Source of the DNA: Corynebacterium aurimucosum ATCC 700975
Lineage (GTDB): Bacteria > Actinomycetota > Actinomycetes > Mycobacteriales > Mycobacteriaceae
NCBI RefSeq assembly: GCF_000022905.1
Contig: NC_012590.1
Location: 1,240,001 to 1,304,000, forward strand
Length of the DNA: 64,000 nucleotides
Direction: 5' to 3'
Each line of letters begins with the position of its first letter. Position 1 is the stretch's first letter. The translations under genes were made by a program, and so were the position numbers. This document shows positions 24,385 through 41,763 of this stretch, piece after piece. Under the pieces are notes generated by a model. It made no database searches. It had not been told where the DNA came from and saw only the letters and a program-made list of their open reading frames with translations.

Positions 24385-25488
24385 CTAAAGGTTGAGCGCG
24401 CGCAAGATGGTGCGCAGCTTAGCCGTGGTTTCCTGAAGTTCGGCCGTCGGGTCGGAGTCCACGACGATTCCTCCGCCTGCCCACGCGCGGGCGGAGAGGC
24501 CATCGCCGGCCACCTCGGCGCACCGGATGGCTACCATGTATTCGCCGTCGCCGGAATCATCGCACCAGCCCACCGCGCCGGCGTAGAAGCCGCGATCGGT
24601 TTCAGCGGTTTCGATCAGCGCTTGTGCGGCCTCAGTGGGGGTGCCACAAATAGCAGGGGTGGGGTAGACTAACTCGGCCAACTCGAGCGCAGTGATGTCA
24701 GAATCCTTGAGGGTTCCCGCAATCGGGGTGCCCAGATGCCACATCTCATTGGTGGAGGTGAGCTGCGGGGCCGTGGGAGCATCGAGGGTCTCGCACAAAG
24801 GCTGCAGAATACGGCGGATGTGATCTACCACGAAAGCATGTTCGCGCAGGTCCTTTGCGGAGTTGTGGAGGTCTTGGCCCGCTTTGATATCGCGTGCCTT
24901 ATCGGCCTGTCGGGGGGCGGAGCCGGCCAAAGGGAAGGCCGTGACCGTCGAACCTTGTTTCTTGATCAACACTTCCGGCGAGGAGCCCACGAACATCGCT
25001 CCGGGGCGCCCTGCCGGGGTGAGATCTGCGATGAAGCCATCGCGGTGGGAAGATAAATCAATCAGCCGCGCGGCAACGAGGAGTGGATCCACCGGGGCAT
25101 TGAACTCAATGTCGACGGCGCGTGCAAGCACCACCTTATCCAGCTTGGAGGCCTCGATCGTGGCAATGGCCGCCTCGATGCGACGCAGGTGCTCCTCCGG
25201 CTCTGGGTCAAACCCAGTCACGCGCGCGTTGAGCGTGCCGCTGCGGTAATAGGCGTGTGGTTCGAGGGGGCCCTCCTCGCGGATGATGCTGCGCGGCACG
25301 GTTAGTGCCGCGGGGTCACCCTTGTGGAAGGGAAGCGCGCCGACAACCATGGGTGCCGTGCCGGAACGCAGAGCAGATACGGCGGCGTTGACGTCGCTGA
25401 AGGTGGCCACTGAGCCTTGGGTACGCACAGACCCCGTCGCGCGGGACAGGAGGAAGTCAGGGGCGGTAGAGGGTCTGTTTTCACACAT
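24385..25488 (-). CDS. Isochorismate synthase
   Basis: 367 residues of the chorismate-binding (anthranilate/isochorismate synthase) fold. It converts chorismate to isochorismate. Signature segments are LDKVVLARAVDIEF, PEVLIKKQGSTVTAFPLAGSAPRQ, the Glu-rich active-site area HLGTPIAGTL, and GWCDDSGDGEYMVAIRCAEV near the C-terminus. The most likely role is menaquinone synthesis (MenF type), since corynebacteria respire with menaquinone; a siderophore role would need partner genes not seen here. It converges with odx across 8 bases and lies just downstream of the P-repeat ABC cluster on the same strand. Confidence 0.85.
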   Translation of the reverse strand: MCENRPSTAPDFLLSRATGSVRTQGSVATFSDVNAAVSALRSGTAPMVVGALPFHKGDPAALTVPRSIIREEGPLEPHAYYRSGTLNARVTGFDPEPEEHLRRIEAAIATIEASKLDKVVLARAVDIEFNAPVDPLLVAARLIDLSSHRDGFIADLTPAGRPGAMFVGSSPEVLIKKQGSTVTAFPLAGSAPRQADKARDIKAGQDLHNSAKDLREHAFVVDHIRRILQPLCETLDAPTAPQLTSTNEMWHLGTPIAGTLKDSDITALELAELVYPTPAICGTPTEAAQALIETAETDRGFYAGAVGWCDDSGDGEYMVAIRCAEVAGDGLSARAWAGGGIVVDSDPTAELQETTAKLRTILRALNL

Positions 25489-25568
25489 AAGGAATAACTC
25501 TAGTTGTTTGCTGCGCTAGCGCCGAAACCAGATCCCCCTCCTTGCAGGCTGTGCGCATGGCCATAGTG

Positions 25569-26912
25569 CTAGTCGCGCTTGCGCGGACGGAAGAATTGCA
25601 CGGCGATGAAAAGCCCAATTCCGAGCAGTAGGGCCAGGGATCCCATGCCCGCCAGAAAGCCCGCCCAGAAGCCCACCATCGGGGCTCCATAGCTCATAGC
25701 CTGGATGTTTTCGCCGTCAGCATACTGTTCCGGCGCATCAGATGTCGGGCGTTGTGCCGCTGCTTCTTTCCTGGCATTCCTTTCGCGATTGGACGCGGCG
25801 CTGCGCGTTGAGTCCTTGGCGTCGGCGGCAGACGAGCTGCGCGGCGTCCCACGCTGTGCTGAATCTCTCTGTCCTTGTGCAGTGTGGGCTGTAGCGTTGG
25901 GCGCCGGACTACGGCCTTGTGCGGTCGCAGAGTTGGCAGCGGTTGGCTCTTTCGACCCTGTTTCTTTCTGCGGCTTCGTTTCCTTCCGCGCGCTGGCCCG
26001 CGTGGAGCGCTCTGTGTTCTTTTCCTCCTTCGCATTCTTCGCATCGGAGGGTTTTCCGCCTTTGAAGAAGGTATCGGCCTCTTTGAAGGTCTTGTCCATT
26101 GTCTTATCTAACTGTGCAATGGCCTTGGATGTATCGTTGATGTCCTTAGCCAGCTGCTGGGGGCGGTTCTTCGGGCTTCCCGAGCCACCGCTGCCACCTT
26201 CGCCCGAGCCCCACTTCAGCTGGCAAAGCTCTGAGGTATCCGCGCCACCGACTAGGAAAGGCACATCAATAGAGTGCTCGGAACCATCGTTGAGGGTGAA
26301 GGTAAAAGTGGCAGCATAAGCACCCGGCTCGCTAAAGATGATCCCGGTGTGGCTGTGGAAGTGATCAGGGTAGTCCCACGTGATATCTGGGTTTTCGGAG
26401 TCAAAGAGCACGGTGGGGTCAGCACCCAAGGAGTTCTGAAAGCCCACCATGCGTCCGCCTTCTGGGCCGCTGTGTAGCGTCAAGGATAAAGTGGCATCGG
26501 CCGCAGTGGCCTCATCGAGGTAGCTGGTGTTGAAGCCCAACCAAGGGATATTCGGATCTTGGGTTTGGGGGATTTGCCAACCGCTCGATGGAATATCGCT
26601 CCCCGCTGATTCATCGAAAGCGGCGTTGCTACCCACTTCTACGTAGAACTCCCCGGAGGCATAGTCCTTACCGGATTCATCATCGCGGGCTATGAAGGAC
26701 AGGGCCCCGGAGTCACCGACCAAAGCGAGGTCTTGGTGCCCGCGGCTGAAGGCGTGTAGGGAGTCAGCATCACAGGAAGTGTCGCTCGCCTGCTCGGCGG
26801 CGATGGCGGGCGGTGCAGTGAGAATCAGCGTCGGGGAGCTGAGCGCTAGAGCAGCGGCTGCAGTCAAGGCGAGGGGACGGTAGTTTATGCGTGTCATTGA
26901 GAGAATGTTCAT
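25569..26912 (-). CDS. Surface-anchored P-repeat protein of the ABC cluster (distal gene)
   Basis: 447 residues. The start ATG overlaps the permease stop (ATGA). Layout: signal peptide ending near PPAIAA, one actinobacterial P-repeat (TIGR03769-like) with GHQDLALV, IPQTQDPNIPWLGFNTSY and the HxH unit HFHSHTGIIFSEPGAYAATF, then a ~170-residue charged, low-complexity stalk rich in Lys, Glu, Ser, Ala, and a C-terminal helix (FWAGFLAGMGSLALLLGIGLF) with basic tail RPRKRD. There is no LPxTG, so anchoring is by the membrane helix. It is the last gene of the importer block, presumably displaying the repeat at the cell surface. The substrate is unknown. Confidence 0.82.
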   Translation of the reverse strand: MNILSMTRINYRPLALTAAAALALSSPTLILTAPPAIAAEQASDTSCDADSLHAFSRGHQDLALVGDSGALSFIARDDESGKDYASGEFYVEVGSNAAFDESAGSDIPSSGWQIPQTQDPNIPWLGFNTSYLDEATAADATLSLTLHSGPEGGRMVGFQNSLGADPTVLFDSENPDITWDYPDHFHSHTGIIFSEPGAYAATFTFTLNDGSEHSIDVPFLVGGADTSELCQLKWGSGEGGSGGSGSPKNRPQQLAKDINDTSKAIAQLDKTMDKTFKEADTFFKGGKPSDAKNAKEEKNTERSTRASARKETKPQKETGSKEPTAANSATAQGRSPAPNATAHTAQGQRDSAQRGTPRSSSAADAKDSTRSAASNRERNARKEAAAQRPTSDAPEQYADGENIQAMSYGAPMVGFWAGFLAGMGSLALLLGIGLFIAVQFFRPRKRD

Positions 26913-27805
26913 GCGGACAAGGTCTCCTTTGGGGTGTGTGATGTTGAGGTGGATGCGGAAGCGCGGCGGGAGTGCACAAGAGGGGAGAGCACCCACGCCA
27001 CGAGGAAGCAGGCGGTGAGGAGCAGAACGATGGTGGCACCGGCGGGCAGGTCGATGGCCCATGCCAGGTAGATTCCGAAGAAGCTACCCATGGAGCCAAT
27101 CGCCGCAGCTGCGATCATCATCGAGCCCAGCGAGTCACAGAGCAGGCGGGCAGTCGCGGCCGGGGTGATAAGCAGAGCGAGGACGAGAACGTTGCCGATG
27201 GTGCCCACGGAGATAACTACTGCGCCCGTAACACAGAGGTAGAGCACGATGTCCAGAGCAAAGACGGGAAGACCCATCGCGCGGGCGGTTTCCTTGTCCA
27301 AGCACGTAGCGGTGAGCTGGGGGCCAAGGAGAAGAACTGTGGCCACGATGAGCACCGTGACGGTGAACGCGGTGTAGAGGTCCGCGCGGGAGACACCCGT
27401 GAGCGAGCCGAAGAGAAAGCTGGTGAGCGAGGCTGTATAGCCGTCTACCCGGGAGATGATCACCATGCCGAGGGCGAAGGCGGCGGCGAAGAAGATTCCG
27501 ATAACGGAATCCTCGCGCACCGTGCGCCGCTGTGAGAAGCACGCGATGAGCACCGCCACGGTGCAGCCCGCCACGGCGCCGCCCAGTAACACTGAGCCCT
27601 GGAGCACGAAGGCAATGGCCAGCCCGGGGAAGACCGCGTGGGAAACAGCATCACCGATGAAAGACATGCCGCGCAGCACGACGTAGCATCCCACCACGCC
27701 GCACACGATGGCAGCGAGGATGGAAATTCCCACCGCGCGCGCCAGGAAGTCCAAGTGTGGGTTGGTGAGATCCTGGAAAAACTCGATGAGTGAAATGTCG
27801 ATCAT
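26909..27805 (-). CDS. ABC-3 family permease of the P-repeat-linked metal-type importer
   Basis: 298 residues with about eight hydrophobic segments, of the ZnuB/MntB-like ABC-3 permease family and specifically like the anchored-repeat permease subtype (TIGR03770). Motifs include YVVLRGMSFIGDAVSHAVFPGLA near the N-terminus, the coupling region facing the ATPase, and TIGNVLVLALLITPAATARLL. It overlaps the ATPase gene by four bases and the downstream surface-protein gene by four bases, so all three are translationally coupled. Relatives import manganese, zinc or iron. Confidence 0.92.
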   Translation of the reverse strand: MIDISLIEFFQDLTNPHLDFLARAVGISILAAIVCGVVGCYVVLRGMSFIGDAVSHAVFPGLAIAFVLQGSVLLGGAVAGCTVAVLIACFSQRRTVREDSVIGIFFAAAFALGMVIISRVDGYTASLTSFLFGSLTGVSRADLYTAFTVTVLIVATVLLLGPQLTATCLDKETARAMGLPVFALDIVLYLCVTGAVVISVGTIGNVLVLALLITPAATARLLCDSLGSMMIAAAAIGSMGSFFGIYLAWAIDLPAGATIVLLLTACFLVAWVLSPLVHSRRASASTSTSHTPKETLSA

Positions 27806-28530
27806 GCTGCCACCCCAATCGCAGAAAGCAGCGGAGAAGAAGCTGAGACCCCGAACGTGTCGCTCCAGGGCTGCGAGTTCATACGCAGCGTTTCCGCTGG
27901 ACCATCTGCGATGATTCCCCGGTTAAATAGCACGAGCCGCGAGCAGGAATGTGCGGCCTCTGAGAGATTGTGCGTGGACATGACAACACTCGTGCCATCG
28001 GCGGTGAGCTTGTCAAAAAGAAGCAGGAGCTCTTCGGTGTTGGGGGCGTCGAGGCCGGTGAATGGTTCGTCGAGAAGCAGCACCTCAGGCTCGCAGGCTA
28101 AGGCCCGAGCAATGAGTACACGCTGACGTTGGCCACCCGAAAGTTGTGCGATGGGACGCCGTGCGAATTCTTCTAGGTTGGTCAGTTCGATGGCGCGGCG
28201 GGCGGCCTCCTTATCGGCACGTCCCGCACGGCGGAACCAGCCCACAAGCCCGGTGCGTCCGCTGAGCACAGCCTTGGACACGCTGATGGGGAAGTCCCAC
28301 TCCACGTCGTGACGCTGTGGAACATAACCCAGGGAAGTGGTGACATCGATGCTCCCGGTGAAGGGGATAAGCCCCAAGATCGCACGCATCAGCGTGGTTT
28401 TGCCCGCCCCGTTCGGTCCTAGCAGCCCGATGAACTCGCCAGGGCGAACAGTCAGGTTAGCAGCGTCGATGACGCGACGGCCGGAGAGGGAAACGGAGAG
28501 GTCTGTGACTGAAATGAAAGGACTAGTCAC
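27802..28530 (-). CDS. ABC transporter ATP-binding protein of the P-repeat-linked importer
   Basis: 242 residues from GTG 28530, which lies 8 bases inside the preceding surface-protein gene; a longer start would add a run with no family similarity. Walker A is LLGPNGAGKTTL, the signature IAQLSGGQRQRVLIARAL, Walker B EVLLLDEPFTGLD and the H-loop VVMSTHNLSEA. It belongs to the metal-type (ZnuC-like) group, subtype TIGR03771, and powers import through the adjacent permease. Confidence 0.93.
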   Translation of the reverse strand: MTSPFISVTDLSVSLSGRRVIDAANLTVRPGEFIGLLGPNGAGKTTLMRAILGLIPFTGSIDVTTSLGYVPQRHDVEWDFPISVSKAVLSGRTGLVGWFRRAGRADKEAARRAIELTNLEEFARRPIAQLSGGQRQRVLIARALACEPEVLLLDEPFTGLDAPNTEELLLLFDKLTADGTSVVMSTHNLSEAAHSCSRLVLFNRGIIADGPAETLRMNSQPWSDTFGVSASSPLLSAIGVAA

Positions 28531-29422
28531 GCTGGCCACCTTTCGCACGCACGACGGCGATGATGGCACCGATAAGGACTAGGACGCCCACGCCGGCCAG
28601 CGCCCAGATCCATACCGGCACGGATGCCGATGCAGAAGCTGAATCGGCAGAGGAATCAGCGTTCGGATCCCATTCTGTTGCCTGAGCTTGTGCGACATCC
28701 GTGTCATCGCCTACAGCAAAGGTCAACGTAGCCTCAGCGGCGACCTCGGTTCCGGCGCTGTCACCCGCACCTTCACCGCTCATGCGGACCCGCACCTGGT
28801 GGATGCCGGGCTCGGTGAACACCCAATTGGCGTGGGTATGCGTGCCCAAGTCGACCCAGAAGCCTTCTGAGTCCCCGGTGGCGGTGGACCATAGCAACTG
28901 GGGTTCTTCGAAGCCGCCGTTCTGCAGGAAGAGGGAGAATTCACCCGGGCCTTGGTGTCCCAGGAACTCCATAGTTACTCCTCTCTCAACGTTCTCCTCG
29001 AGGGAAGGAGCCTGGGTATTCCAACCTAGCCACGGCACATCAGCCTGTTCCGTTTGTGGAACGACCCATACTTGCGAACCGGGCTCGGCACCGACGAAGG
29101 AGAAGGCCTTGTCCTCAGGCAGGGTTAACAGGGCGTTGTCGCCCACCTGGAATACCACATCGTCGGGTTGACGCCACACGGGGGTTTCAGCTGAATCATC
29201 ACGAGCGAGGAATTCTGCTTGCCCTTCATTAAGCAGCAGGCCCAGGTCGACGTGACCGTGATCGATAGCGGCAGCAGTGCCTGGTGCCGCCACTTCTTCG
29301 TCAGAGCTGACAACCTGTGCCAGATCCCCGGCCCAGGCGGCAGAGGGTGCAAAGGCCAGCGCCGCGGCGCTCAGTGCTGCCGCAAGCGGCATAGTGAAAA
29401 TTCGGAGGGTGCGATTAGACAT
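28523..29422 (-). CDS. Surface-anchored P-repeat protein (middle gene)
   Basis: 299 residues from ATG 29422, which overlaps the end of the substrate-binding-protein gene by 8 bases. Signal peptide with cleavage near AAWAGD; one P-repeat with HGHVDLGLLLNEGQAEFLARDD, FSFVGAEPGSQVWVVPQTEQ, VPWLGWNTQ and THTHANWVFTEPGIHQVRV; a short Ser/Ala/Asp spacer; a C-terminal helix (VWIWALAGVGVLVLIGAIIAVV) and basic tail. There is no LPxTG. It is the smallest and cleanest example of the repeat in the cluster, so a good reference copy. It probably tethers the repeat near the importer. Confidence 0.85.
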   Translation of the reverse strand: MSNRTLRIFTMPLAAALSAAALAFAPSAAWAGDLAQVVSSDEEVAAPGTAAAIDHGHVDLGLLLNEGQAEFLARDDSAETPVWRQPDDVVFQVGDNALLTLPEDKAFSFVGAEPGSQVWVVPQTEQADVPWLGWNTQAPSLEENVERGVTMEFLGHQGPGEFSLFLQNGGFEEPQLLWSTATGDSEGFWVDLGTHTHANWVFTEPGIHQVRVRMSGEGAGDSAGTEVAAEATLTFAVGDDTDVAQAQATEWDPNADSSADSASASASVPVWIWALAGVGVLVLIGAIIAVVRAKGGQRD

Positions 29423-30914
29423 GAGATTCCTTTGTTGTGCTGCCAAGGCAGCGGTTGAGTGAGTGTGCGTTGAAACGCATGAGACCGAGATACGTCGGTA
29501 CGGCGTCATCGAGGGTGTCGCCGTAAATGGGACAGACCGCCACCCCGAGGGAATCGGCGGCTTCCCTAATGACGTCTGCGCTGGCTTGTTGGGTCGGTTC
29601 CACGAACACCGCGGGAAGCTGGAGGTTCTCCAAGGTGCGACGCAGCGCGATGACATCGCGCGGCGAGGGCTCGATGGCCGGGTTGGGGCTAACGAAGCCC
29701 GCGATATCAATGCCATAGCCTTGCTCCAGGTAGGCGTAGCCGTGGTGAGGTGTAACGAGGTGGCGGTTGCGCTCAGGAATGGCAGAGATGAGCTGACGAA
29801 CCTCTGCATCGACGTCCCGCAGTTGTGCGATGTAGTCCTGTGCGCGGGCACGGTAGGCCGCGCCGTGCGAGGGATCTGTTTGCGCAAGTTGCTCAGCGAT
29901 GACCTCAGTAAAGCTGATGACATTGGCGGCGTTATGCCACAGGTGTGGGTCTACTTCGCCGTGAATGTGCTTGCCCAAGACAGCTTGGGGCAGGAGATAG
30001 GTCTCATCACCGGGCCGGCCCAAGAAACGGTAGGAGGGATCCGGCGGTATCTGCTGCAGAGCGGAATTCGGGATACTGAGCACCGTGGTGTTTGGATCAA
30101 AACTCTCGCCCTGATCCTCCAAGTCGAGTTTTCCTGTAGCCATATCCGCGGTGATGTCTACGTGACCTGCATCGAGCGCGCGCATTCCCGCGGGGGTGCT
30201 AACGCCCACCGCCACCGTGAATTCCTGCGGGGAGCTGTCGGTAGCACCAAAGCTCAGCCGATAAATGCCGGGCTTGTTGAAAGTCCAGGAGACGTGCGTG
30301 TGGGCATTAGCCGGCAGCGTCGTGGAATCGTTGTGCTGGTCAATCCCGTCTGCGCTGTTAAAGAGCGGCTCAGGCGTACCGAACGTTGAGACCACGTAGG
30401 CCGCGACATCGCCGGGTCCTTCCACATCGAGCAGGCGCATGTCGACGCTCGTGGTACCTGGGGCTGCGTTGCGCACACGCAATCCCAACCACACTGCATC
30501 GAGGGCAACGTTTTCTACCAAAGGGACGAGCTTCGCGCCGCGTGTGGATGCTTGGTCCGCCACTTCGGTGACGGGCACATCCGAGGACTCCCGCAAGGAC
30601 TTCAGCAGGTTCTGCGGCTCGAGGAGAAAACCATTAGACAGCAATACGTCGGCGTTGGCGATATCGCGTACCGAGCGCAGGCTCGGCTCAAAGGTATGTG
30701 GATCCTTTCCCGCAGGAATCAGCGTGGTCACTGTGGCATCCTCACCGGCTACGTGCTTGGCGACGTCCCCCAGTATCGGCGTCGTCGCCACCACCTTCAC
30801 CTTCCCATCGTCTCCGCTGGCGGAGCTTGCGCAGCCACTCAACATGGATGCGCCGAGAAAGATGGCGGAAAGGAGCGCGGTGTACTGCGTCCGAGTGCGA
30901 ACCTTCCGTGGCAT
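29415..30914 (-). CDS. Metal-type ABC substrate-binding lipoprotein with inserted, permuted P-repeat
   Basis: 499 residues from ATG 30914, overlapping the previous stop by one base. Lipobox LSGC puts the lipidated Cys at 28. Residues 38-120 are the ZnuA/MntA-like N-lobe (VVATTPILGDVAKHV, with a ligand His in PAGKDPHTFEPS). Residues ~122-313 are an insertion made of P-repeat sequence. From ~314 the ZnuA-like fold resumes with GKHIHGEVDPHLWH, then TPHHGYAYLEQGYGI and CPIYGDTLDDAVPTYLGLM with the C-lobe ligands. In the insert the repeat's second half (VWLGLRVRN...AHTHVSWTFNKPGIYRL) precedes its first half (GHVDITADM...YLLPQ). It matches the anchored-repeat substrate-binding subtype (TIGR03772). 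The likely cargo is a metal or metal complex. Confidence 0.88.
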   Translation of the reverse strand: MPRKVRTRTQYTALLSAIFLGASMLSGCASSASGDDGKVKVVATTPILGDVAKHVAGEDATVTTLIPAGKDPHTFEPSLRSVRDIANADVLLSNGFLLEPQNLLKSLRESSDVPVTEVADQASTRGAKLVPLVENVALDAVWLGLRVRNAAPGTTSVDMRLLDVEGPGDVAAYVVSTFGTPEPLFNSADGIDQHNDSTTLPANAHTHVSWTFNKPGIYRLSFGATDSSPQEFTVAVGVSTPAGMRALDAGHVDITADMATGKLDLEDQGESFDPNTTVLSIPNSALQQIPPDPSYRFLGRPGDETYLLPQAVLGKHIHGEVDPHLWHNAANVISFTEVIAEQLAQTDPSHGAAYRARAQDYIAQLRDVDAEVRQLISAIPERNRHLVTPHHGYAYLEQGYGIDIAGFVSPNPAIEPSPRDVIALRRTLENLQLPAVFVEPTQQASADVIREAADSLGVAVCPIYGDTLDDAVPTYLGLMRFNAHSLNRCLGSTTKESHV

Positions 30915-32017
30915 TAGTCGCGGCCCTTCATGAGCGCGAGGCGTGCTAGCGCCAACCCCAGAACGAGCATGCCCAGGCCGAGGATTCCGATTCCCCACGG
31001 CAGCAGGTTTTGCCCGCTGTCGTAGTAGCCGGCCGCAGCGACGGTGTCCACATTCTCCCCGTCCGCGGCCCCGGTGGAGCGGTGAGAAGGCTTGCGCTCT
31101 TTCCTTTCTCCGCGCTCTTTACGCTCCTTGCTGCTTGCCTGTTGCTTCGCGTTCCTGGTTCCGGCTGCGCGGGTACCCCCGCCAGCGTTTCCACCTCCCG
31201 AACGTGTTCCCGAGGCCGAGGATGCCGGTTGCTCAGGGGAGGCGTCGCCCAGCTCTGCCTCGTGGTGCTCTTCGGTACCGTCATCACCATTATCGGTGGC
31301 GGGTTCCTCGTCCCCGGACTCCTGCGGCGCGGCGTCACCATCTCCGACATCCCAGGTATAGGTGACCTGATTACTCGTATCGCCGTTGGATTCCGCCTGG
31401 ACAGTCATGGTGTAGATACCCGGTTCACTAAAAGCCCAGTTGACGTGGCGATGCGCCGGGTAAGCCTGGTTGATGACATCACCAGAAACGAGGTCGAGCT
31501 CACCAGCATTGGTAACCGGTTGGATATCGCCGAAGCCTGCCGTTTCAAAGATAAAGATGTCACCAGGGCCGGTGACCTCGACGAATTCGAAGTTGACGTC
31601 TTTGTAGCCAGCCGATTGTGCCGCTTGGGTATCCCAACCCGGCCAGAGCAGCGAGCTGTCCTGGGTTTGGGGAAGGTAATACGTGGGCATAGCAATGCCG
31701 TCGATGCGCTCGGTCGCCTCGCTCCAAGCTTTTTCTGCGACTTTGAGGATGACATCGTTGCCGGGCCGGACGACGCCACTGCCGGTGACGTCCTCCTTCA
31801 TCGACAAAGTCAGCTGACCGCCCGGTGCGGAGACATAAAAAGCATCAACGTGTCCGGATTCGATGAGCTCGCTATCCGCTCGCGCCGCAGCCGGCGAGCC
31901 AAGGACGGCCACAAACAATGCCGCGACAATGGTGAACACGGCGGCGCTGGCTTTTAGCAGTGCACTGTTCTGGCGCACGTTCAGGCCCTGAGCAGCGCGT
32001 GATGGTGTGGAGTGCAA
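30914..32017 (-). CDS. Surface-anchored P-repeat protein with charged stalk
   Basis: 367 residues from TTG 32017 with AGAAAGGA upstream. Signal peptide ending near AAARAD; one P-repeat: ESGHVDAFYVSAPGG, YYLPQTQDSSLLWPGWDTQ, VTGPGDIFIFETAGFG and AHRHVNWAFSEPGIYTMTV. Then follows an acidic stretch, a Gly/Arg/Lys-rich stalk (KERKERGERKERKPSHR) and a terminal helix (WGIGILGLGMLVLGLAL) with tail MKGRD. No sortase motif. It overlaps the substrate-binding-protein gene by one base, so the two are made together. It is one of four membrane-anchored repeat proteins in the cluster. Confidence 0.82.
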   Translation of the reverse strand: MHSTPSRAAQGLNVRQNSALLKASAAVFTIVAALFVAVLGSPAAARADSELIESGHVDAFYVSAPGGQLTLSMKEDVTGSGVVRPGNDVILKVAEKAWSEATERIDGIAMPTYYLPQTQDSSLLWPGWDTQAAQSAGYKDVNFEFVEVTGPGDIFIFETAGFGDIQPVTNAGELDLVSGDVINQAYPAHRHVNWAFSEPGIYTMTVQAESNGDTSNQVTYTWDVGDGDAAPQESGDEEPATDNGDDGTEEHHEAELGDASPEQPASSASGTRSGGGNAGGGTRAAGTRNAKQQASSKERKERGERKERKPSHRSTGAADGENVDTVAAAGYYDSGQNLLPWGIGILGLGMLVLGLALARLALMKGRD

Positions 32018-32032
32018 TCCAGTGTGTCCTTT

Positions 32033-34402
32033 CTAGCGGGGAAGCAGGCCAGTGAACCGCGCAGCGATTTGGTCGCGGTGATCGTTGTAGAAGTTGAGGA
32101 AACCTTGGAAGATGATGGCCAAGACAACCGGGAGTACGAGCCCCCACAGGCCCTCGAGTTTGGGCAGAGAGGACGTCTTGTCCTTCTGGCCACCAGGCTG
32201 GTTATCGCCTGGTTTCTTATCGCCTGGCTTATCTCCGGGCTTTTCATTACCTGGCTTGGGGGTGTCTTCGCCTTCCTTTCCTTCCTTTGATTTCACACAG
32301 TCTTTGATTGCTGCATCGCCCGCTGCGACGGTGAGCGTTTGGGGCGCAGAGGAGATGTCCTTGCCCTCTGTGGTGGTGGCCGAATAGGTGACTTCGAGCT
32401 TGTAGATGCCCGGCTTGGTAAACGCCCAATTGGTGTGGGTGTGCGAAGCAAAAGTGGTCTCGATGGAGTAGTCACCCTCGGCGGAATTGATCAACTGGGT
32501 GAAAACGTTGCCAAAGCCTTCGGTAGTAAAAAGGCCTACCTGCGCACCCTCTGGCATCTCCACGGGCTTGATGTTGAGCGTGACTTTGCCGTCTTTATAG
32601 TCCTTGTAGTTGAGGGCCTGGGTGTTATAGCCCGGCCAGATGATGCTTTGCTCCTGGGTCTGCGGGAGGAGGAAGAACTTTTCCTTGCCTAGGTAATCGA
32701 AGTCCTTGCCCTTAAGCGCGGCGGGGCGGGAGCGCAGGGCGTTGTCGTGCACCGCGAGGACGACGTCATCGAGCGGGCGCTCGACGGTCTTCTTGTCCAC
32801 GAGGGCCGTTTCATCCTTCAAGCGGGTGAGGAACTCATCGCCGTCACGGGTAACCGCAATGTCGACGTGGCCGCGGTCAAGCACTACCTTGTCAGCACAG
32901 GTACCAGTGTGTTCTCCCGCGTCTGGTTTGGGAGGGTTATCTGGGGCTGGCGCAGGAGCCTGGGCCCCAGCGCCAAGTTTGCCCACACCCTCGTATTTTT
33001 GGCCGAAGGCGAAATTGTCGGTCAGCGTGATGCTGCCGGACTCTTGCGTGATGCTCGGGTGCGGAAGAATATCCAGGCGCACGGTATTGCCGTTGAAGTT
33101 TGCATCGGCGCCGACGACAAATTCGGCGCGGCCGCGGGTGATCGTTCCGTCGAATCCGATGTCCGGAAGCGAGCTTCCCTTGCTAAAGAAGCCGCCATGC
33201 ACGTAGCCTTCCAGGTTCTTATCGGCTGCCTCCAGGATGATGCGGGTGGCGTCTTCGCCCTCCGGAACAACACGCGCGGACAGTCCCGTGTCAGATAGCG
33301 AAACCTCTTCTCCGGAGAAGAGCTGGCGGGGGTTTGTGGTCTCGGTCCAGGACTCCGCGGAGGTCTTCGAGGTGGTGGAAAGCTCAGCGTTCTCAGAGTA
33401 GGCAAGCTCCTCGCTCACCCAGCGCGGGCTGCCGTCCTCCGGGGTGTACACAGCTTGGATTGTTGAGTCCTCGGGCCCTAAGAATTCATCGAAGTGTGCC
33501 TTGCCATTTTTCACGGCTAGATCGGTGAGGAAGTAGCCGTCGATCAGCAGCGTAAGCGTGCCGTCGCTGCCGCCGGAGAAATCGATGGAGGAAAGGCGCT
33601 CATCCCCGTCCTTGTCTCCGGTTTTCTTGGGCGTGATGCTCAGGCGGTAATCCTTCTGGCTGGCATCGCCCGTGGAGGCCTGGTCAAAGCGCTCTTTGAG
33701 GGAAGGCGTTTTCTCATCAGCGGGACGCTGCCCGCCGACTTGGATCGAGGTGGTCGTGGGCTTGGAGGTAATCAACGAGCCATCCTTGCCCCGCGCGCTC
33801 GTTTGATAGGTGAGCTCATAGCGTCCAGGCTTGGAAAAGACGGTGTAGTTGTGGGTATGCGTGCCGCTGGTCAGCCATGCGGAATGCGGAGCGCCCTCGG
33901 TGGTTCCGAAGAAACGCTGCAGGCCGCCGGGTCCGGGGTAATAGCCAAACATCTCGACATCGCCGGGGCCGTCAACGCTTAAGAGGTCCAGGGAAGCGAT
34001 GTTGTCGCGGAAGTCGTCGACAGGCAGCTCTGTGTCCGCGCCGAAGCCCATCCACACCGGGTCCAAGCTGCCTTGGACACTGGCAGGCGCCATGTAATAC
34101 GTCTCGCCCGGCTTTCCCACAAAAGCGAGCGCGGGGTCCTCAGGCACTGTGAACTGGTATTGGTTGGTGCCGTTCTGGTTCCAGCCTTTACCTACCCAGG
34201 TGACTGTATCGGCTAGGTCGTGGTCGGAGCTTGCAGAATGGCTCTTGAGGTTGAGAGCATTGCCCTCCCAGAAAGCCTTGGGGGAATCAATATGTGTCTG
34301 AGTGGCTACGTGTTTGCCGTCGTCAGGACCAGCGACGGCGGTAGCGGGGGAGAAGAGAAGCGTGGCGCAGGTTAAAAGCGCCACATAGCGAGTTCGAGCC
34401 AC
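32033..34402 (-). CDS. Large two-repeat surface-anchored protein, first gene of the importer block
   Basis: 789 residues from GTG 34402 behind GAAAGGT. Signal peptide (VALLTCATLLFSPATAVAG); an N-terminal P-repeat with LAFVGKPGETYYMAP, PVWMGFGAD and THTHNYTVFSKPGRYELTY; a ~250-residue middle region of beta-type sequence including a VHGGFFSKGSSLPDIGFDG segment; a second P-repeat with RGHVDIAVTRDGD, FFLLPQTQEQSIIWPGYNTQ and THTHTNWAFTKPGIYKLEV; a Lys/Pro/Gly spacer and a terminal helix. It resembles TIGR03773-type ABC-associated wall proteins. As the largest repeat protein and first in the block, it may be the outermost receptor. The substrate is unknown. Confidence 0.83.
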   Translation of the reverse strand: MARTRYVALLTCATLLFSPATAVAGPDDGKHVATQTHIDSPKAFWEGNALNLKSHSASSDHDLADTVTWVGKGWNQNGTNQYQFTVPEDPALAFVGKPGETYYMAPASVQGSLDPVWMGFGADTELPVDDFRDNIASLDLLSVDGPGDVEMFGYYPGPGGLQRFFGTTEGAPHSAWLTSGTHTHNYTVFSKPGRYELTYQTSARGKDGSLITSKPTTTSIQVGGQRPADEKTPSLKERFDQASTGDASQKDYRLSITPKKTGDKDGDERLSSIDFSGGSDGTLTLLIDGYFLTDLAVKNGKAHFDEFLGPEDSTIQAVYTPEDGSPRWVSEELAYSENAELSTTSKTSAESWTETTNPRQLFSGEEVSLSDTGLSARVVPEGEDATRIILEAADKNLEGYVHGGFFSKGSSLPDIGFDGTITRGRAEFVVGADANFNGNTVRLDILPHPSITQESGSITLTDNFAFGQKYEGVGKLGAGAQAPAPAPDNPPKPDAGEHTGTCADKVVLDRGHVDIAVTRDGDEFLTRLKDETALVDKKTVERPLDDVVLAVHDNALRSRPAALKGKDFDYLGKEKFFLLPQTQEQSIIWPGYNTQALNYKDYKDGKVTLNIKPVEMPEGAQVGLFTTEGFGNVFTQLINSAEGDYSIETTFASHTHTNWAFTKPGIYKLEVTYSATTTEGKDISSAPQTLTVAAGDAAIKDCVKSKEGKEGEDTPKPGNEKPGDKPGDKKPGDNQPGGQKDKTSSLPKLEGLWGLVLPVVLAIIFQGFLNFYNDHRDQIAARFTGLLPR

Positions 34403-34440
34403 AGTCTGGGACCTTTCTTCAGTTCTTTGGCGAGAGTTTC

Positions 34441-34468
34441 ACTATAGGTAATGGAATTCAGTCCCGTT
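34441..34468 (-). promoter_or_regulatory. Candidate promoter of the P-repeat ABC cluster
   Basis: On the minus strand a TATAGT -10 element (34446 to 34441) lies ~40 bases before the GTG of the first gene, with a weak TTAACG-like -35 about 18 bases further upstream. I saw no certain DtxR, Zur or MntR box in 34403-34560, so the regulator remains open. Confidence 0.35.
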
Positions 34469-34573
34469 AAGCTTGAATAGAAAGCCCAGTTCACGCGTAG
34501 TGGAAACAGGGTTCAATTACCCCCAAGTGGGGCGGGCGGTGCGGCGATGCCGCGCTGAACTACGATGGGGGAC

Positions 34574-36064
34574 ATGACTAAACCGACATCCGACGTCCGC
34601 GTCCGTTTCTGCCCCTCGCCTACCGGCACGCCCCATGTGGGCATGGTCCGCACGGCTTTGTTCAACTGGGCCTATGCCCGTCACACTGGCGGTACGCTCA
34701 TCTTCCGTATCGAGGACACCGATGCTGCCCGTGATTCTGAGGAGTCCTACCAGGCCATCATTGACTCCCTGAACTGGCTCGGGCTGGGCTGGGATGAAGG
34801 AGTTAACGTCGGCGGCCCGGATGAGCCTTACCGTCAGTCGCAGCGCATGGATATCTACGCAGATGTCCTGCAGAAGCTCAAGGATGGCGGCTATGTCTAT
34901 CCGGCTTACTCCACCAACGAAGAGGTTCAGGAGCGCCACAAGGCAGCTGGCCGCGACCCGCAGCTGGGCTACGACAACTTCGACCGCGACCTCACCCAGG
35001 AGCAGATAGACGCTTTCGAGGCGGAAGGCCGCAAGCCGGTCTGGCGCCTGCGCATGCCGGACAAGGATTGGTCCTGGACCGACCTGGTGCGCGGCGAGAT
35101 GACCTTCAAGTCGGAGACCCAGCCGGACTACGTCGTGGCGCGCTCGAACGGTGCGCCGCTCTACACCCTGGTTAACCCGGTCGACGATGCCCTCATGGGA
35201 GTTACTCACGTCCTGCGTGGTGAAGACCTCCTGTCTTCCACGCCGCGCCAGCTGGCCCTTTATGAGGTGCTCGTGGAGCTCGGTATTGCCAAGAAGACGC
35301 CTGAGTTTGGTCACCTGCCCTTCGTGATGGGTGAGGGGAACAAGAAGCTGTCCAAGCGTGACCCGCAGTCCAACCTGTTCAATCACCGCGACAACGGCAT
35401 CATCCCGGAGGGAATGCTCAACTACCTGTCGCTGTTGGGCTGGTCCCTGTCCGCGGACCAGGACGTCTTCTCCGTTGACGAGCTCATCGCTAACTTCGAT
35501 GTCCACGACGTGTTGGGCAACCCGGCTCGCTTCGACCAGAAGAAGCTCGAGGCCATCAATGCCGACCACATCCGCCTGCTTAAGCCAGAGGACTTTGCTC
35601 AGCGCCTGCGCGACTACCTCACCGAGTACACCGACTTCCCGGCTGACTATCCGGAAGAGAAGTTCGCTTTCGCCGCAGATCTGGTGCAGACCCGCATTAA
35701 GACGCTGTCCGACGCCTACGGACTTATGTCCTTCTTGACCACGCCGGACGCTGAGCTGGAGCTGGACGAGAAGGCGGCCCGGAAGAACCTCAAGGAGGAG
35801 GCGGTGCAGCCTCTGGAGGTTTCCATTGCCAAGCTGGAAGAGCTGGGAGAGTGGAAGACCGACGAGATTGAGAAGGTTCTCTCCGCCGCGCTTATCGACG
35901 ACCTCGGCCTCAAGCCCCGCAAGGCCTACGGCGCCCTGCGTGTAGCTATCTCTGGTCAGCAGGTTTCCCCGCCGCTGTTTGAGTCCATGGAGCTGCTGGG
36001 CAAGGAGTCCACGCTGACCCGACTCAAGGCTGCGCAGGCGCTCACGCCGTGGAGCGCTGAGTAG
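34574..36064 (+). CDS. gltX: Glutamyl-tRNA synthetase
   Basis: 496 residues from ATG 34574 (GGGGG just upstream; an in-frame ATG at 34565 is less likely). It charges tRNA-Glu. Class I signature motifs: [19 protein letters not shown], with PHVG in the HIGH position, and KKLSKRD (KMSKS position). Actinobacteria usually also use this enzyme to mischarge tRNA-Gln, later fixed by GatCAB. It lies right before tRNA-Gln and tRNA-Glu genes, a fitting neighbourhood. A strong terminator follows the stop. Confidence 0.97.
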
Positions 36065-40801: not shown

Positions 40802-40880
40802 TTGAAAGTCCGGGGATTTTCAATCAATTTTCAGTAGCTGACACTGCCAGTAAAGCGTGTTTTCAATTTAGTTTCAATAG
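40802..40880. promoter_or_regulatory. Paired TTTTCAA direct repeats upstream of the His-rich gene
   Basis: TTTTCA at 40817 and 40828, and TTTTCA/TTTCAA at 40860 and 40872, make two direct-repeat pairs with 11-12 base periods, about one helix turn. TTGAAA at 40802 adds an inverted half-site. Spacing like this is typical of OmpR-type response regulators, though a Zur-like site is also possible. The repeats are seen; the regulator is inferred. Confidence 0.4.
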
Positions 40881-40959: not shown

Positions 40960-41763
40960 ATGATGAAAAAGTCTCCTCAGCGTCTCCTCTCGCGTTTTGT
41001 TTCCGGTTTTGGTTCCGTGGTTGGCGCGTGCTCGCTAGCTATTGCTCTTGCTACCCCTGCAACGGCTGTCGAGGGCGTGCCGGTGAGGCAAGGGCAGAAG
41101 GTTGCTGCTGCTGATGGCACCTTGTGCAGTGTCGGTTATGTTGAGGCTAGTCGGGCCTGGACCTCGGCCCACTGCGGTCTCAATGGGGAGCAGATGTACA
41201 ACGAAGCGGGCCAGCACGTAGGGACCTTGCGTTGGTTCAAGCCTTCCGGGGCGGCAGGACATGACTTGGCCTATATACAGTTCGCCGGCGGAACGTACTC
41301 GGCGGGAAACCCCCTCACTGGGGATGGCATGGCGCCGGTTCCGGGTGAAGGCGCAACTGTGTGTTTCGACGGGCAGTCTGCGTCCCGGCAGTGTGGTACT
41401 GCTGTCCGTGGGCCGGGCATCTTCCCGGGGATGAACTATGCGGTCGACGTGTCGCTGGCTCCGGGGGATAGTGGCGGGGCGGTCTCTGTTCCGGATCAGC
41501 CGGGCGTGGTGGGCATTTACCAGGGGATTACCCAGACCAACCGGGAAGGCCGGACTGTGACTTTCTCAAACTATGCACGGATGCCACATGCGGATGAACT
41601 GGCGCGCCTGCCGCACCAAGGTTGGGTACCGCGACGTCCCAACCGGGAACCAGGCAACCCAGTCCGGGTGGTGCAGGAAAAGGGTGAGGCGTTGTCCTCC
41701 ACAAGTAGCGCGGGTCCAGAAGGGCTGCGTGGCCTCGCAATGTATTTTGGTTTGAGTATTTAG
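40960..41763 (+). CDS. Secreted trypsin-like serine protease (S1)
   Basis: 267 residues. The N-terminal signal peptide (MMKKSPQRLLSRFV..., cleaved near TPATAVEG) leads to a chymotrypsin-fold domain. The catalytic triad is visible: His in TSAHC, Asp in AGHDLAYIQF, Ser in LAPGDSGGAV. Two pairs of cysteines would form family disulfides (LCSVGY/AHCG; VCFDG/QCGT). The last ~45 residues after the protease fold are Pro/Arg-rich and then end in GLAMYFGLSI. The substrate is unknown. It runs opposite to the His-rich gene and converges with ltbR. Confidence 0.85.
   Translation: MMKKSPQRLLSRFVSGFGSVVGACSLAIALATPATAVEGVPVRQGQKVAAADGTLCSVGYVEASRAWTSAHCGLNGEQMYNEAGQHVGTLRWFKPSGAAGHDLAYIQFAGGTYSAGNPLTGDGMAPVPGEGATVCFDGQSASRQCGTAVRGPGIFPGMNYAVDVSLAPGDSGGAVSVPDQPGVVGIYQGITQTNREGRTVTFSNYARMPHADELARLPHQGWVPRRPNREPGNPVRVVQEKGEALSSTSSAGPEGLRGLAMYFGLSI

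Follow-up and report, generated by a model that had tools for sequence, protein, structure and literature searches.

A 64,000-nucleotide stretch of Corynebacterium aurimucosum ATCC 700975 (contig NC_012590.1, positions 1,240,001 to 1,304,000; hereafter the window) carries, at positions 25569-34402, a block of seven consecutive minus-strand open reading frames (ORFs) in the order g7, g6, g5, g4, g3, g2, g1. They encode a ZnuABC-type importer together with four secreted membrane-helix proteins that have one domain in common, choice-of-anchor M (the M domain). What looks to be new in this block is that the importer's zinc-binding protein bears a rearranged copy of the surface module, placed where the related protein AztC receives zinc. 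The features of the block, listed in the order of its genes, are as follows.

32033..34402, minus strand: g7, secreted; has two M domains, a membrane helix at its C-terminus and no sortase-like motif (profiles; signal and helix judged from sequence)
33737..34309, minus strand: g7 M domain 1 (NF038134 1-184, 8.8e-44)
32324..32884, minus strand: g7 M domain 2 (NF038134 1-183, 3.8e-49)
30914..32017, minus strand: g6, secreted; has a single M domain (31346-31864) and a helix at its C-terminus (profiles, sequence)
29415..30914, minus strand: g5, ZnuA-type lipoprotein substrate-binding protein (SBP) into which a circularly permuted M domain is inserted (TIGR03772)
30225..30515, minus strand: first segment of the g5 insert, the M domain's C-terminal half, which carries HxH (NF038134 72-169)
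29982..30176, minus strand: g5 insert, N-terminal half of the M domain, which comes second and carries HxD (NF038134 2-73, 32.2 bits, by itself under the family cut-off)
28523..29422, minus strand: g4, ZnuE-type membrane-anchored protein with a single M domain (28712-29266)
27802..28530, minus strand: g3, ATPase, ZnuC (TIGR03771)
26909..27805, minus strand: g2, permease, ZnuB (TIGR03770, PF00950)
25569..26912, minus strand: g1, secreted; has a single divergent M domain (26274-26747), a C-terminal helix rich in glycine and no sortase-like motif

The gene starts were chosen by position and upstream sequence: GTG at 34402 for g7 (789 amino acids), TTG at 32017 for g6 (367), ATG at 30914 for g5 (499), ATG at 29422 for g4 (299), GTG at 28530 for g3 (242), ATG at 27805 for g2 (298) and ATG at 26912 for g1 (447). 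The longer ORFs given by the ORF lister for g5, g4, g3 and g1 start within the preceding gene. At the likely starts, g7 and g6 are separated by a gap of 15 bp, and the other five of the six junctions overlap by 1 to 8 bases each (g6/g5 by 1, g5/g4 by 8, g4/g3 by 8, g3/g2 by 4, g2/g1 by 4), much as an earlier reading of the letters without database searches (the sequence-only reading) had described.

The importer subunits pass curated family cut-offs, with 397 bits for TIGR03770 (cut-off 296.8), 301.3 for TIGR03771 (268.8) and 590.3 for TIGR03772 (350.45), and profile E-values for the block genes reach 2.5e-177. NF038134 (choice_anch_M, cut-off 55) is passed by g1, g4, g5, g6 and g7. Compared with the anchored-repeat ABC system of NCBIfam (TIGR03769-TIGR03773), of which the permease, ATPase, SBP and one surface protein pass their cut-offs here, the block differs in that only g7 passes TIGR03773 (203.8 bits, cut-off 190.3; g1, g4 and g6 stay under) and in that g1 falls under TIGR03769 (21.3 vs 30.9), which g4, g5, g6 and g7 pass. 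The sequence-only reading had named these five families, each of which is passed by at least one block protein in the profile search, and had seen a ZnuABC-like importer with four secreted, helix-anchored proteins of one repeat type; the profiles agree, with signal and helix still judged from sequence. Its list of repeat hosts was right for the four surface proteins and omitted a fifth, the SBP g5. All seven M-domain matches in the genome lie inside the block, and two further ZnuA-like proteins are encoded elsewhere in the genome. The nearest named relatives of g5 are from Corynebacterium sp. HMSC036D02 (96%) and C. aurimucosum (90%).

The M domain of the ZnuA-type SBP is circularly permuted in all 64 homologues tested, compared with none of 302 stand-alone M domains. 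The alignment used here (A1) holds the window and 63 relatives, namely 9 of 22 Corynebacterium loci, 30 loci for the 116 genus matches described below and 24 further loci (L101-L124); a distant Pirellulales match (L029) was left out. Stand-alone domains were those covering at least 85% of the M model outside strong SBP ORFs. A single-profile test for swapped halves recovered 61 of the 64 SBPs, not 64. In the doubled-profile control, 15 of the 302 stand-alone domains had a match across the joint, in each case skipping most of one copy and scoring no better than the single profile, and none gained more than 5 bits from the doubled profile. All four HxH/HxD motif residues of the insert are kept in 64/64 SBPs, and all four are present in 262/302 stand-alone domains, the exceptions in the HxD column being mostly alignment gaps. 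In mature g5 numbering, H179 and H181 (the HxH of the insert) and H225, D227, H290, H292 and H298 are invariant in all 64 SBPs. The ZnuA motif KHxHGExDPHLW comes after the N-terminal half of the insert, and the cleft site of the ZnuA part consists of H47, H298, H364 and D440, a presumed ligand set of three histidines and one aspartate.

The insert occupies the site of the D-loop in AztC, the SBP of the AztABCD system of Paracoccus denitrificans. AztC is the top Foldseek match of g5 and also among its best VIA-align matches; the two differ in that g5 remains under the AztC family cut-off (NF040870, 184.5 vs 350 bits) and has a whole domain in place of the loop. The D-loop of AztC is required for receiving zinc from the donor AztD. 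It could be argued that the permuted insert instead serves ZnuE, the permease or the wall as a domain for docking or shielding and does not itself carry zinc. Both linkers of the insert have low confidence in the predicted model and are probably flexible, and the cleft ligands of ZnuA are complete without the insert, as such a role would allow. However, a plain spacer would not need the invariant HxH and HxD, and flexible loops at this position in P. denitrificans SBPs are reported to be unnecessary for permease contact. We regard this explanation as possible but less likely.

The main text of one paper on the C. diphtheriae counterpart (PMC12445094) returns no matches for "permut", "AztC" or "insertion", and we found no report of a permuted SBP insert in the open-licence literature, where a permutation query gave only an unrelated glucose-binding protein. 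Searches of the same literature by family and gene names gave no other study of this system, judged by title or the start of the abstract. The C. diphtheriae ZnuA is described as having its HxD and HxH motifs reversed in order and 45 residues apart (PMC12445094), and to judge from our alignments a permuted domain at the AztC loop position is a concrete explanation of that reversal.

By its gene content, the block is an already studied kind of zinc-uptake system, here in a related Corynebacterium. In C. diphtheriae, dip0438-dip0444 are reported to be zinc-repressed via Zur (PMC6711530), and the znuAECB and znuF-445 clusters are described as two zinc-regulated operons, of which znuAECB supports growth on low zinc (PMC12445094). 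According to the same paper, ZnuE is required on low zinc, including the histidines of its HxD/HxH motifs; zinc induces thermal shifts in vitro in ZnuE, ZnuF and, less clearly, ZnuG; and ZnuF gets to the wall without any of six known sortases. By the descriptions in these papers, the likeness to znuAECB-znuFG (dip0438-dip0443) extends to the reversed HxH/HxD motifs of ZnuA, a ZnuE between ZnuA and ZnuC, and surface proteins with HxD/HxH; the Zur control described there has a putative counterpart here in candidate sites. The order znuA-znuE-znuC-znuB with M-domain proteins alongside is found in the window too. The differences are that here two of the surface genes lie ahead of znuA and one lies after znuB, and that ZnuG of C. 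diphtheriae is reported to have an LPDTG motif, unlike any of the four M proteins of the block, which lack an LPxTG-like signal. The sequence-only reading had proposed an undescribed uptake system in corynebacteria, which these publications overturn. Its proposal of metal uptake holds, the metal being most likely zinc given the C. diphtheriae counterpart and the Zur-type sites, while its statement that the families have no established substrate is out of date because of the zinc and Zur results in C. diphtheriae.

The substrate could in principle be another metal or a metal complex (manganese, iron or haem), with the zinc effects being indirect. The SBP does score with a manganese family (NF053842, 142.9 bits), although it does not reach the cut-off of 400, and its presumed site is of the three-histidine, one-aspartate type. 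Yet the AztC zinc family scores higher and AztC leads the structural matches, Zur-type sites are present, and the C. diphtheriae counterpart has zinc phenotypes in the published work. A different metal seems very improbable.

The evidence for regulation comes from the gap upstream of g7 (34403-34564, 162 bp), where the following features were located.

34449..34469, no strand assigned: candidate Zur operator 1, within the promoter-like pair (best matrix site of the 64 kb, 14.6 bits; sequence match only)
34498..34518, no strand assigned: candidate Zur operator 2, upstream, in the gap common with the divergent gene at 34565 (second-best, 14.4 bits; sequence match only)
34441..34470, minus strand: promoter-like pair, hexamers 18 nt apart (sole minus-strand pair in 25300-34700; consensus match only)

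The Zur matrix combined four C. glutamicum motifs bound by Zur in vitro with a Streptomyces consensus, the letters being those given in PMC2823685. The two best Zur-type sites of the window both lie in this one gap; of 1000 column-shuffled matrices, none placed both of its top sites there, and 18 placed at least one of them there. The promoter scan of both strands gave 2 pairs against a mean of 2.0 in shuffled sequence, so there is no excess over shuffles. Upstream of the related blocks, a Zur site of at least 12 bits was found in 48/60 loci, and p was at most 0.05 against shuffled matrices in 49/60 (60 of 62 loci; the stretch was too short in L020 and L146). As a positive check, a relative with the C. 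diphtheriae gene order, its LPDTG protein last (L126), has one Zur site right before the SBP ORF and a second in the permease ORF, about 64 bases ahead of the likely start of the next M gene; zinc-repressed promoter activity has been reported in the same two places in C. diphtheriae. The second of these Zur-controlled promoters, the one inside the permease gene, has no equivalent here, where most surface genes lie upstream of the importer: none of the ten best Zur-type sites falls in 25569-27805, near g1 and the permease gene, although a weaker site is possible. Judging from these matches, Zur regulation probably carries over from C. diphtheriae to this block.

The divergent gene that starts at 34565 and borders the same gap resembles glutamyl-tRNA synthetase by sequence; because the Zur-type sites lie in the common gap, zinc could affect that gene too. 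The third-best Zur-type site (40816-40836, 12.9 bits) lies about 120 bases before a gene at 40960 that resembles, again by sequence, a secreted trypsin-like protein. An Rfam scan of 22000-45000 gave three tRNAs and no other matches.

Over the TIGR03772 cut-off, SBPs were found in 116/242 genomes sampled from the genus, 27/394 from the class (13 of 137 genera) and 3/396 from the phylum. Weaker TIGR03772 matches occur in 254/396 phylum genomes; those among them that were listed fall mostly on the ZnuA part. The M domain and the importer co-occur in exactly the same 27 class genomes, and since each of these has at least three M matches, the matches are more than an echo of the SBP insert. In the genus, M domains occur in 124/242 genomes, namely all 116 with the SBP and eight others. 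Among the named carriers of the block are C. minutissimum, C. striatum and C. tuberculostearicum. Each of the 62 related loci that were examined has a similar block, with differences in the order and number of surface genes; this recurrence and the profile E-values mark the block as more than a chance arrangement. With the window counted, all 63 loci have an M protein between SBP and permease, and 61/63 have a further same-strand M protein. In one locus (L026, a Candidatus C. faecipullorum metagenome-assembled genome), the surface and SBP genes are split into several short frames, by decay or sequencing error.

The motif L[PA]xT[GA] was not found in the last 75 residues of g1, g4, g6 or g7, and the genome has four sortase-domain matches. 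At the g6 position, a sortase-like motif, often LANTG, occurs in 41 of 58 proteins (the window's included), and among the 17 that lack it are those of the window and of seven close relatives (L007-L010, L018, L023, L025). The membrane helix of these motif-less relatives resembles that of corynebacteria with LANTG, and it is possible that wall anchoring of g6 was lost in the window and its near relatives. The g1-class proteins have a common glycine-rich helix and a sortase motif in just 3/43. The glycine-rich tail pattern, which is descriptive and was made after reading the tails, matches 36/43 g1-class, 27/58 g6-class, 1/64 ZnuE-class and 2/36 g7-class proteins; the g1-class helix may offer a clue to how ZnuF is anchored independently of sortases. 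In a tree of 274 of 366 M-domain rows (rows at least 90% identical and short ones dropped), the ZnuE-position domains formed no clade; these positional roles are rough and some rows are perhaps misassigned. The ZnuE alignment (A2) used 47 of 59 available rows.

Taken together, these results suggest the following mechanism. In zinc shortage, the block, otherwise repressed by Zur, would be switched on from a promoter near 34441-34470. The wall- or membrane-held g7, g6, g1 and ZnuE would present M domains that hold zinc by means of paired HxD and HxH motifs; the permuted M domain of g5, in place of a flexible donor loop, would pass the zinc to the ZnuA cleft site; and ZnuB and ZnuC would import it from there. 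The importer, its regulation and zinc as the metal are well supported by kinship and sequence, and the block is very probably a Zur-controlled zinc importer. The account up to the transfer step, which we regard as the best explanation, is likely to hold. The genes, domains, permutation, insertion point, invariant residues, Zur-type sites and co-occurrence were established in this analysis, whereas zinc and Zur control, the requirement for ZnuE with its motif histidines, the thermal shifts with zinc and the protein location come from published work on C. diphtheriae. That the permuted M domain serves for docking or transfer, and which way the transfer runs, we infer; the hand-off of zinc through it is a tentative proposal, whose chances we put somewhat below even. 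In favor of a relay, as the sequence-only reading had hypothesized, are the occurrence of the M domain and the importer in the same 27 class genomes and the presence in the SBP of a permuted M domain where the donor loop would be. A comparable arrangement has been proposed for the Pht proteins of streptococci with AdcAII, likewise surface zinc-binding proteins thought to deliver zinc to a zinc SBP, which differ, as described in PMC12445094, in their His-x-x-His-x-His motif and distinct sequence.

Several observations weigh against this account. Twelve of the 60 relatives score under 12 bits at the Zur-type site, some of them because the estimate of the block start is off (as in L159, with a 29.5-bit site), and in 45 of the 60 the best site outscores the 14.6-bit site here. 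M domains also turn up in eight of the 126 Corynebacterium genomes that lack a TIGR03772 match at E 1e-90; among these eight, G442 is an assembly that is 82% complete. A ligand set of three histidines and one aspartate is usual for manganese and iron SBPs (PMC7731109), although AztC, of the same group, nonetheless binds zinc, and deletion of the D-loop in P. denitrificans is reported to cause only a minor growth defect. In C. diphtheriae, by the published account (PMC12445094), the effect of a znuA deletion is modest, and a ZnuE whose motif histidines were replaced by alanine still shifts with zinc, which, with the unclear ZnuG result, means that HxD/HxH is not proven as a zinc site. Also, deletion of znuF or znuG has no effect on growth there when znuAECB is present, and the two genes lower growth when it is absent, as a zinc sink would; this counts against a relay. 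The published mutants support zinc and ZnuE, but no donor role for the wall proteins.

The same phenotypes suit a different role, in which the surface M proteins store or buffer zinc in competition with the importer, import is the task of ZnuA, ZnuE, ZnuC and ZnuB alone, and the common domain reflects common descent rather than a hand-off; sequestration and storage are in fact named as possible roles of ZnuF and ZnuG by the authors of that study (PMC12445094). Against this stand the restriction of M domains in the class sample to importer genomes, the requirement for the motif histidines in the growth role of ZnuE, the longer lag phase reported on deletion of znuF-445 (PMC12445094), and the presence of the same module, with every motif residue kept, in the SBP itself. 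We consider stores or buffers possible, if rather doubtful. The relay has an evolutionary form that we offer in a similarly cautious spirit: an actinobacterial zinc SBP may have acquired, a single time, a permuted version of the surface M domain where its donor-receiving loop had been, with the result that M-domain donors and ZnuA would meet via like domains, as a wall-to-membrane zinc wire for thick envelopes.

For the biology of this family, the analysis gives an unstudied locus a likely substrate, zinc, which by extension would apply to the same gene block in 116 of the 242 Corynebacterium genomes sampled. Furthermore, the permuted domain makes the role of the surface proteins a matter that a simple transfer assay could address.

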